Positions 5,703-8,921 of a stretch of 64,000 nt of DNA are shown one piece after another. The position numbers and the translations under genes are program-made. Under the pieces are notes generated by a model. The model saw only the letters and a list, made by a program, of their open reading frames with translations. It did no database searches and was not told the origin of the DNA. Source of the DNA: Opitutia bacterium ISCC 52 (GTDB lineage: Bacteria; Verrucomicrobiota; Verrucomicrobiia; Opitutales; UBA2995). The stretch spans positions 620,001-684,000 of the forward strand of contig CP076040.1 of assembly GCA_014529675.2 (NCBI GenBank). Direction: 5' to 3'. Numbering within the stretch: the first letter of the stretch is position 1; each line of letters starts with the position of its first letter.

Positions 5703-6776
5703 ATGGGAAGCGATTCAAGAGTGCAAGTGGATTACCTGATCGTGGGGCAAGGCCTCGCGGGCAGTTTGCTCGCATTGAATCTTTTGAAGAGAGGCAAACT
5801 GATACGAGTTATCGACGATGGGCACAAGCACGCAGCGTCCAAGGTCGCTGCTGGACTCATTAATCCGATTACAGGCCGTCGCCATGCCCTTACCTGGCGT
5901 TTTCTCGAGTTTTGGAATTTTTTGCAGAGCGATTACGTCCGCTGGGAAGAGCTGCTGGGTGACCTCTTTTTTCATAAAATACCTCTGCTTAGGTTTTTTA
6001 AAAACGACGAGGAGCAGGCACGCTTTGAAAAGAAATGGGAAGCAGGAGGCTTTGAAGGCATCGACGTGGAATATCCGGGAAGCATGGAAGATGTACCCTT
6101 TTGTAAATACGAGGAGCCATCTTATCGCCTGAATCAGACAGGCTACGTAGATCAGGCTCTGTTCATAAAACGCGTTAGGCAGTTTTTGGATCAAGAATCT
6201 GCAGTATTGACCGATACTTGGTCTGACACAGATGTCTCTCGTGAACCCGGGGAGGTGCGCTGGAAAAATATTTCTGCTAAGGCTGTCATTTTCACCCAGG
6301 GATTTCTGGCGAGTGAGAATAGCTACTTTCGTGACCTTCCTTTTCGACATGCGAAGGGACAAATTCTTGATCTCCATGGGCCCGAGCGCCCCCATTCACC
6401 CGTCTTGAATCGAGGTAAGTGGTTGCTCCCCACCGGACCCGGGACCTTTAAAGCGGGTGCAACCTACGATCTAAACAATATTAATCAGGAACTTACTGAG
6501 GCCGCATCGACTGAGATTCTCGATGCCATAGACGGCATGGTCGATGGAGACTTTCAGGTTCGATCTGCCAAAGCAGGCGTTCGACCGGCCTTGCATGATT
6601 TTAAGCCCGTAATGGGTAAACATCCCTGGTGCCCGGAATGGATCATATTCAACGGATTGGGTTCGAAAGGTTCATTGCAGGCACCTCTACTGGCAAAGGA
6701 ACTGGTCGACTACCTTGAGGATGGAGTAGCACTTCCGGCTGAGGCAGATGTCGACCGCTTTCGAAAGTATTTGTGA
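5703..6776 (+). CDS. FAD-dependent oxidoreductase, DAO fold, MnmC(o)-like
   Basis: This 357-residue protein has the D-amino-acid-oxidase type FAD fold. The dinucleotide-binding motif IVGQGLAGSLLA lies at about residues 13-24, followed by SKVAAGLINPITGRR at about 46-60, a segment equivalent to the GASGN..GALYP signature of the MnmC oxidase domain, and a C-terminal RPALHDFKPVMGKHP plus NGLGSKGSLQAPLLA block typical of DAO proteins. MnmC(o) removes the carboxymethyl group from cmnm5(s2)U34 of tRNA to give nm5(s2)U34. The stop overlaps the GTG start of mnmM by three bases, so the pair could do together what the bifunctional MnmC does in enterobacteria. The fold is clear; the tRNA role rests on gene context. 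A general amino-acid oxidase is the alternative. Confidence 0.72.
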   Translation: MGSDSRVQVDYLIVGQGLAGSLLALNLLKRGKLIRVIDDGHKHAASKVAAGLINPITGRRHALTWRFLEFWNFLQSDYVRWEELLGDLFFHKIPLLRFFKNDEEQARFEKKWEAGGFEGIDVEYPGSMEDVPFCKYEEPSYRLNQTGYVDQALFIKRVRQFLDQESAVLTDTWSDTDVSREPGEVRWKNISAKAVIFTQGFLASENSYFRDLPFRHAKGQILDLHGPERPHSPVLNRGKWLLPTGPGTFKAGATYDLNNINQELTEAASTEILDAIDGMVDGDFQVRSAKAGVRPALHDFKPVMGKHPWCPEWIIFNGLGSKGSLQAPLLAKELVDYLEDGVALPAEADVDRFRKYL

Positions 6777-7363
6777 ATTCCTTAAGTCCAGTTGAGGTGG
6801 CCCATCGTTTTATCCGATCTCTGATCAGGAAGGGTGACCTATGCATAGATGCCACGGTGGGTAATGGGCACGATACAATTTTTCTGGCAGAACAGGTAGG
6901 TGAAAAAGGCAAGGTGCTTGGATTCGACGTTCAATCCTCCGCAATCGAATCTACCCGTACTGCTCTGGTGAAAAACCAATTGGCAGCCCGGGTGCAACTG
7001 TTTGAGCTGGGACATGAAACCTTGGGCGCTGAACTCTCCGAAGAGGAGAAAGGTTGTTTGAAGCTAGTGGTATTCAATCTTGGTTACTTGCCAGGATCTG
7101 ATAAATCAGTTGTGACACAAAGCCAGTCAACTCAGCAGGCCTTGGAGCAAAGTTTGGTTAATCTTCAACCCGATGGAGCCATCTCGTTGGTAGCCTACCG
7201 TGGTCATGCAGGTGGAAACGCAGAGTGTGCTGCTGTGGAAGCGTGGGTAGACCAGTTGCCGGCCGATTCCTATTTTTGTCTCCGCTATGAAAGGTGGACT
7301 CATCAGCGTGGACTTACTCCTGTATTCTTTTGGATACAACGGCGCGATAATGACATTGCTTAG
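6773..7363 (+). CDS. mnmM: SAM-dependent methyltransferase, probable tRNA U34 nm5s2U methyltransferase (YtqB type)
   Basis: The 196-residue protein belongs to the rRNA_methylase (PF06962) group that includes Bacillus YtqB/MnmM, which methylates the aminomethyl group of nm5s2U34 in tRNA to give mnm5s2U34. Matching features are PVEVAHRFIRSLIRKGDLCIDATVGNG-type text at the N-terminus with the SAM loop DATVGNGHDT (about 26-35), VVFNLGYLPGSDK (about 102-114) with the family NLGYLPG signature, and AYRGHAGGNAE (about 143-153), equivalent to the YxGHxGGxxE motif. Translation starts at GTG (6773-6775) inside the upstream stop codon (GTGA overlap), so it is translationally coupled to the FAD oxidoreductase. 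Confidence 0.85.
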   Translation: MNSLSPVEVAHRFIRSLIRKGDLCIDATVGNGHDTIFLAEQVGEKGKVLGFDVQSSAIESTRTALVKNQLAARVQLFELGHETLGAELSEEEKGCLKLVVFNLGYLPGSDKSVVTQSQSTQQALEQSLVNLQPDGAISLVAYRGHAGGNAECAAVEAWVDQLPADSYFCLRYERWTHQRGLTPVFFWIQRRDNDIA

Positions 7364-7409: not shown

Positions 7410-8921
7410 ATGAAAGATCAATTGATTCGTGAAATCCTAAAGGCCCGGCAACGGGTCTATTCTCTGGCGCCTGCTACGCCTTTGCAGGAGTTGGACCTAC
7501 AATCGGATTTTCGCTGTTTTATTAAGCGGGAGGATCTATCGCCTATTAATGCCTACAAATGGCGTGGTGCTTACAACCGCATGTGCCAGTTGTCTTCTGA
7601 TGAACTAGCTAAAGGTGTGATCACTGCCTCGGCTGGAAACCATGCTCAAGGTGTTGCGCTGTCTGCTAAGAAGCTAGGAACGAAGGCTATTATTTACATG
7701 CCCCTTTCGACCCCTAAGATGAAACAGAATGCCGTCAAACGTCTGGGCGGGGATCAAGTGGAAGTCGTTCTCAAAGGAGATTCTTATGATGAGGCCTCGA
7801 ATGAGGCTAAAAGAATAAGTGCCGAGAAGGGGGTCACCTATATTCACGCCTATGATGATATGCAGGTGATGGCCGGGCAGGGGACTATAGCCGACGAAAT
7901 TATCATGTCGGGTGAAGGTCCTTTTGATATCGTTTTTCTGCAGATTGGAGGCGGTGGATTGGCCGGTTCCATTGCCGCCTGGCTCAAGCAGGTAAATCCT
8001 GATACCCGAATCATTGGTGTGGAGGGCGAGCATCAGGCCTCAATGGCTGCTGCTATCAAAGCGGGGAAACCCGTGGAGTTGGATTACGTCGACGTCTTCT
8101 GCGACGGTACTGCGGTCAAGCAAGTAGGCGAGCTCACGTATTCAGTTTGTCGTGACGTTGTGGATGAGTTTATGACGGTCAGTAATGAGGAGGTGAGTGC
8201 TGCCATCGAAGTTCTTTGGAATGTTTCGAGAGTAATTCCCGAGCCATCAGGTGCGATGGGCCTCGCTGCCATCCTGAAGCGTCAGTCGGAGCTTTCTGGA
8301 AAGAAAGTAGTTTCGATCTTATGTGGTGCTAACATGGACTTCCATCAGCTGGGTAATATTTCCAGTGCCTCTGGTATCGGCTCCGCTACTAAACGCTATT
8401 TACGATTTCATATTGGAGAGCATCCGGGAGAACTACTGCGTTTGCTCGAAGAAGGACTCGACGGATTTAATATAGTAGACTTCCAATATGGGAAGACTCA
8501 TGAGGTCGATTCATGGCCCATCCTGGGTGTGGAAGGATCGAGTGAAGAATTAGAGCAACTACCCGAGCAATTGAAGGTGGCCTCTCTTGAGTTTGAAGAT
8601 GTAACTTCGAGTCCAGACATCAGCTTCCGAGTGATTCCGTTTCGATCACGACTCATCACTCATCCTTATTTTATCGAACTCGAATTTCCAGAGCGCGCGG
8701 GTGCTCTCCACGACTTTTTATACTCCGTCCGCGGGTCCGCCAACATCTGTTACTTTAATTATCAGTATACGGGTGAACGCGTCGGTCGCGCGTTGATTGG
8801 TTTTGAATTTCCCGATGAGGCTCAACGTCAGACATTCACTGAAGGCATGAGCTCAGGTCATTGGCAGTTTAGAGCCTTCCAGGAGTTGCCTGCAGACGTA
8901 ACGAAGCGGATTGCCGAATAG
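7410..8921 (+). CDS. ilvA: Threonine ammonia-lyase, biosynthetic
   Basis: IlvA deaminates threonine to 2-oxobutanoate, the first committed step of isoleucine synthesis. The 503-residue protein has a fold-type II PLP domain with the cofactor lysine K50 in [10 protein letters not shown], the [10 protein letters not shown] loop, the phosphate-binding Gly-rich QIGGGGLAG segment and a CGAN motif. After about residue 325 come ACT-like regulatory segments ([18 protein letters not shown] and later [18 protein letters not shown]), so feedback control by isoleucine and valine is expected. The length matches the two-ACT biosynthetic enzyme rather than the shorter catabolic TdcB. It sits 46 bases after mnmM on the same strand but has its own spacing, so cotranscription is possible, not certain. 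Confidence 0.95.

Follow-up and report, generated by a model that had tools for sequence, protein, structure and literature searches.

An FAD-dependent oxidoreductase gene overlapping mnmM as a candidate cmnm5(s2)U34 oxidase in Verrucomicrobiota and other phyla

In the window, the 64,000-nucleotide stretch of Opitutia bacterium ISCC 52 DNA analysed here, a gene for an FAD-dependent oxidoreductase overlaps a gene for the tRNA methyltransferase MnmM. Judging from sequence comparisons, the two genes very likely constitute an operon that finishes the synthesis of mnm5(s2)U34 in tRNA, with the oxidoreductase predicted to convert cmnm5 to nm5 and MnmM to convert nm5 to mnm5. According to this proposal, MnmE and MnmG, encoded elsewhere in the genome, would make cmnm5(s2)U34. 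The oxidoreductase would oxidise the N-CH2-COOH (N-carboxymethyl, glycine-like) part of cmnm5(s2)U34, hydrolysis would then give nm5(s2)U34 and glyoxylate, and MnmM would use SAM to convert nm5(s2)U34 to mnm5(s2)U34. In Verrucomicrobiota, Planctomycetes and several proteobacterial lineages, the oxidoreductase would carry out the first half-reaction ahead of MnmM.

Both open reading frames lie where the first-pass annotation had placed them, and the TGA stop codon of the oxidoreductase (6774-6776) does sit inside the GTG start codon of mnmM (6773-6775), as the sequence GTGA reveals on direct reading. The features of the pair are as follows.

5703..6776, + strand: DAO-fold FAD-dependent oxidoreductase, 357 aa (Pfam PF01266, 95 bits); candidate cmnm5(s2)U34 oxidase (MnmC(o)-like activity)
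5838..5882, + strand: SKVAAGLINPITGRR motif, oxidoreductase aa 46-60, at the position of the MnmC(o) GASGN..GALYP signature in alignments
6582..6584, + strand: codon for Arg294 of the oxidoreductase, invariant in its family, in MnmC(o) (E. coli R567) and in ThiO
6651..6671, + strand: NGLGSKG motif, oxidoreductase aa 317-323; GS[K/R]G as in MnmC(o), absent from ThiO
6773..6776, + strand: 4-bp GTGA overlap of oxidoreductase stop and mnmM start, by direct reading
6773..7363, + strand: MnmM (YtqB-type), predicted nm5(s2)U34 tRNA methyltransferase, 196 aa, GTG start (NF053511, 196 bits; PDB 8h0s)
7076..7105, + strand: MnmM motif NLGYLPGSDK, aa 102-111; N102, Y105 and K111 correspond to B. subtilis N101, Y104 and K110

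The same 4-bp overlap, but with ATG, is present in the three nearest relatives (L077, L078 and L079), which are 60%, 58% and 53% identical, respectively. Such an overlap suggests that translation of the two genes is coupled, which would match the supply of the two enzymes. A 503-aa open reading frame resembling PLP-dependent threonine dehydratases, named from its own sequence, lies 47 bp past mnmM on the same strand (7410-8921) and could be co-transcribed with it.

The assignment of the second gene to the YtqB/MnmM type holds firmly. Its product scores 196.2 bits against the NCBIfam MnmM model NF053511, for which the curated cut-off is 135 bits, and it is matched by YtqB/MnmM chains in the PDB (8h0s, E 2e-34). 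The residues reported to be essential in B. subtilis MnmM are D34, N101, Y104, K110, Y141 and H144 (PMC9976899), and alignment places D34, N102, Y105, K111, Y142 and H145 at these tRNA-contact and catalytic positions in the window protein. The counterpart of B. subtilis Lys11 is His11 by ungapped extension only, the pairwise alignment beginning at residue 13, and most of the MnmM members aligned here likewise carry His at position 11. The window MnmM is predicted to catalyse the methylation of nm5s2U34 to mnm5s2U34.

We examined the remainder of the pathway in the genome that holds the window, a single contig of 4.8 Mb that is 97.8% complete. As a check on its proposal, the first-pass annotation had suggested asking whether mnmEG is present and mnmC absent, and this is what we find: mnmE (346.7 bits) and mnmG (753.3 bits) are neighbours at 4.49 Mb, and a profile search of the genome detects no MnmC(m)-type methyltransferase (PF05430). 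Nor does any protein of the genome exceed the 180-bit cut-off of the radical SAM family TIGR01212 (MnmL/YhcC), the best score being 26.7 bits. The genome holds three further long DAO matches. One of them comes nearest to glycerol-3-phosphate dehydrogenase without reaching that model's cut-off, another resembles N-methyl-tryptophan oxidase and exceeds the cut-off, and the third gives 95 bits with ThiO, which is under the cut-off. These searches leave MnmM as the one methyltransferase after MnmEG, and the product of the overlapping gene as the one obvious candidate for the oxidase.

The nearest named relatives of the oxidoreductase come from Opitutales MAGs, and conserved pairing with mnmM, which had been put forward as a further check, is evident in related genomes. 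We scanned 288 Verrucomicrobiota genomes, counting MnmM only above the NF053511 cut-off, and found MnmM in 46 and the oxidoreductase in 60. All 46 genomes with MnmM also carry the oxidoreductase, compared with 14 of the 242 without MnmM (Fisher p 3e-41, a value that ignores shared ancestry). By coordinates, the two genes are adjacent or fused in 14 of the 46; elsewhere they can be 2.7 kb apart (G243) or unlinked, as in genus g29 of family f8. Of the weaker oxidoreductase matches, 17 were retrieved, and each of these falls within the same clade of the tree. An apparent premature stop in one oxidoreductase gene (G102) was rejected because it sits upstream of the start codon.

The pairing extends well beyond this phylum. 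A wider scan of named genomes yielded 80 oxidoreductase loci, of which 39 have MnmM downstream in the same orientation, within about 100 bp or overlapping in 37 of them; these 39 loci include Verrucomicrobia, Methylomonas, Methylobacter, Crenothrix, Mariprofundaceae and Chromatiales MAGs. MnmM is the sole widely conserved neighbour of the oxidoreductase in loci outside Bacteroidota, and a search across the Bacteroidota loci found no conserved neighbour. At another locus (L085, 4192-5679, + strand), the mnmM frame runs on without a stop for roughly 300 codons upstream, out of frame with the oxidoreductase gene that it crosses; this is probably a high-GC effect.

At five of the 80 loci, all from planctomycetes (Rhodopirellula, Schlesneria, Planctomyces and Planctomycetaceae), a single open reading frame of about 570-660 aa carries both domains, and Pfam gives their order in two of these fusions (L100 and L104) as DAO followed by rRNA_methylase/MnmM. 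A further oxidoreductase-MnmM fusion, of 548 aa, is present in a one-contig Verrucomicrobiota genome (G223, L058), and the tree requires the fused state to have arisen at least twice, once in the planctomycetes and once in this genome. A predicted fold of a planctomycete fusion (pTM 0.57, five sequences) has two domains joined by a low-confidence linker at residues 359-379. This model suggests that the fusion comprises two independent catalytic domains, and we claim no interface between them.

Where MnmM is lacking, the oxidoreductase is usually accompanied by a different methyltransferase, MnmD. Among the 14 Verrucomicrobiota genomes that have the oxidoreductase and lack MnmM, six (family f23) carry a stand-alone PF05430 protein and two carry a fusion of Tgt to PF05430. 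As a result, a known or probable nm5U methyltransferase is present in 54 of the 60 oxidoreductase genomes of the phylum, and neither methyltransferase was found in the other six. Of the 49 genomes from which the named loci come, 20 have MnmM and 23 have strong PF05430 matches (E below 1e-15), none has both, and in six neither is clearly present; TIGR01212 (MnmL) is absent from all 20 of the MnmM genomes. Every one of the 23 strong-PF05430 genomes belongs to Bacteroidota, and lineage is thus a confounder of this distribution, but family f23 provides an independent case, within Verrucomicrobiota, of the oxidoreductase occurring with PF05430 in place of MnmM. The oxidoreductase probably supplies the first half-reaction for MnmD in Bacteroidota.

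PF05430 matches within frames of about 700 aa in Verrucomicrobiota families f3 and f4 were considered as bifunctional MnmC and rejected, the retrieved sequences being Tgt (queuine tRNA-ribosyltransferase, PF01702) with a C-terminal PF05430 (MnmC(m)/MnmD-type) domain. Such proteins unite two wobble-position activities in one chain. Two of them are defined by Pfam.

L158 2213-4330, - strand: Tgt-PF05430 fusion, genome G088
L161 1841-4018, - strand: Tgt-PF05430 fusion, genome G160

Both genomes are without MnmM and keep the DAO oxidoreductase (L187 and L188), and they may combine the same oxidase with a methyltransferase arrangement of a third kind. In addition, the PF05430 frame at L162 (G102) starts out Tgt-like, and G045 and G075 contain PF05430 frames of about 690-730 aa.

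The oxidoreductase itself reaches no curated NCBIfam equivalog in a profile search. Its best-scoring NCBIfam model is ThiO (TIGR02352), at 80.5 bits with a cut-off of 250.8, and the MnmC(o) model TIGR03197 (MnmC_Cterm) gives 70.4 bits with a cut-off of 174.2. TIGR03197 is matched by all 28 of 28 oxidoreductase relatives; the family is related to MnmC(o) but outside TIGR03197. A tree built with nine MnmC(o) and six ThiO or ThiO-like reference sequences gathers the family into a single clade (support 100). This clade groups weakly with MnmC(o) as its sister (support 81), and the alternative placement beside ThiO is not rejected (p-AU 0.42). The oxidoreductase is probably closer to MnmC(o) than to the glycine oxidase ThiO.

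Individual residues point in the same direction. The conserved residues of MnmC(o) that are matched in the window include R294, G252 (E. coli G518), G305, G320-S-K-G323 and R352, and five of the E. coli positions (G518, R567, G578, G619 and R653) are more than 98% conserved in MnmC (PMC3648344). R294 (R567) is invariant across the oxidoreductase family, MnmC(o) and ThiO alike. In contrast, G305 (G578) and G320-S-K/R-G323 (616-619) are common to the oxidoreductase and MnmC(o) and not to ThiO, with K322 of the window standing for the Arg at the third place of E. coli G616-S-R-G619. R352 (R653), found in 29 of 40 relatives, is likewise MnmC(o)-like and absent from ThiO. The motif SKVAAGLINPITGRR had been said to occupy the GASGN..GALYP position, and the alignment agrees, pairing S46-P55 of the window with S304-P313 of E. 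coli MnmC.

If the oxidoreductase were a ThiO-type glycine oxidase, or some other amine oxidase of small molecules linked to mnmM by a common operon and nothing more, then the rank of the ThiO model and the p-AU of the ThiO sister placement would be readily understood. The same is true of its predicted structure (AlphaFold2, pLDDT 95.1, pTM 0.93), whose top matches are glycine oxidases (Z 36-37), followed by iminodiacetate oxidase and MnmC (Z 34). However, fold comparison failed to tell ThiO from MnmC(o), since Z is about 34-37 for both, and glycine oxidase is the closest structure to MnmC(o), the two catalysing analogous reactions (PMC3648344). Moreover, iminodiacetate chemically resembles the cmnm side chain. 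The ThiO score is far under its cut-off, no thiamine genes lie alongside, and the YRHG motif that precedes the C-terminal helix of ThiO is replaced by NGLGSKG in the alignment; cut-off, motif and gene context speak against ThiO itself. Given also that mnmM is the one neighbour widely conserved outside Bacteroidota, that the two have fused at least twice, and that occurrence of the oxidoreductase tracks tRNA methyltransferases, we consider a small-molecule oxidase quite unlikely.

A tRNA enzyme of the same pathway with another role, such as acting on another 5-substituted U34 intermediate or on selected tRNAs, would leave nm5U to come from the ammonium route of MnmEG. With ammonium, MnmEG can yield nm5 directly (PMC3936742), so an oxidase is not a strict requirement for MnmM. 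Some genomes also hold MnmM together with a TIGR01212 protein; of 38 Verrucomicrobiota genomes with MnmM that were tested, four have such a protein and 34 lack it. Nevertheless, the MnmC(o)-like residues and the glycine-oxidase-like site fit the cmnm side chain, and parsimony also weighs against this reading, which is very unlikely. That the pairing is an inherited operon devoid of functional meaning is scarcely credible, for although label changes are clustered on the tree, such that conservation partly reflects ancestry, the independent fusions, a co-occurrence that is complete even for unlinked genes, and the possible switch of methyltransferase partner all argue otherwise. We therefore continue to favor a two-gene operon in which the oxidoreductase would serve as the cmnm5(s2)U34 oxidase for MnmM.

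Comparison with known systems clarifies what is preserved in this arrangement. The same two reactions are expected as for E. coli MnmC, an MnmC(m)-MnmC(o) fusion, and the oxidase halves share the DAO fold, the invariant Arg, the GS[K/R]G motif and a C-terminal Arg that most members keep. Unlike E. coli MnmC, however, the window has separate overlapping genes with the oxidase first, its methyltransferase is MnmM rather than MnmC(m)/PF05430, and its oxidase belongs to its own clade under the MnmC(o) cut-off. The pair had initially been described as a split MnmC. This description remains apt for function but not for origin, because the gene order is reversed and neither half passes an MnmC model; the arrangement is better viewed as a functional rebuild. 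The accompanying idea of a pathway rebuilt from non-homologous parts applies to MnmM, which is a non-orthologous replacement, but not to the oxidoreductase, which is homologous to MnmC(o) within the glycine-oxidase-like DAO superfamily and has active-site and C-terminal residues in common with it. Relative to ThiO and the iminodiacetate oxidase IdaA, the family shares the DAO fold and FAD oxidation of a glycine-like C-N bond, but it is without thiamine context, lacks the ThiO YRHG motif, and follows tRNA methyltransferases in its presence.

The methyltransferase is of the same family as B. subtilis MnmM (YtqB), being over the curated cut-off and keeping the tRNA-contact residues, but it is paired with an FAD oxidoreductase. 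The radical-SAM protein MnmL is credited with the first step in Bacillus, and B. subtilis mnmM is not simply unlinked, because it sits with mnmL (ytqA). The reactions, MnmM and the DAO fold are already known, and the FAD family with MnmM is a new arrangement of a known pathway. Our search found no literature on this FAD family with MnmM; Jaroch et al. 2024, whose abstract reportedly mentions fusion proteins and alternate arrangements, was outside that search, and prior notice of the fusions is therefore possible.

On balance, it is more likely than not that the DAO family represents a further widespread class of cmnm5U34 oxidase, the third beside MnmC(o) and MnmL, and that it serves non-orthologous methyltransferases. 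In Verrucomicrobiota, Planctomycetes, methanotrophs and Mariprofundaceae its partner would be MnmM, encoded next to it, fused to it or at an unlinked site; in Bacteroidota and some Verrucomicrobiota it would be MnmD, either on its own or as a fusion to Tgt. When MnmM was discovered, the MnmC(o)-like enzyme of organisms with MnmM was unknown, and such an enzyme was also predicted for lineages with an orphan MnmC(m), for example Bacteroides (PMC9976899). If our proposal is true, the DAO family would fill the MnmC(o)-like role that these authors foresaw in organisms carrying either MnmM or an orphan MnmC(m). MnmL is the answer for some Gram-positives, and the DAO family offers a concrete candidate for several Gram-negative phyla. 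The family would show how one step of a pathway can be kept while the next is carried out by unrelated enzymes.
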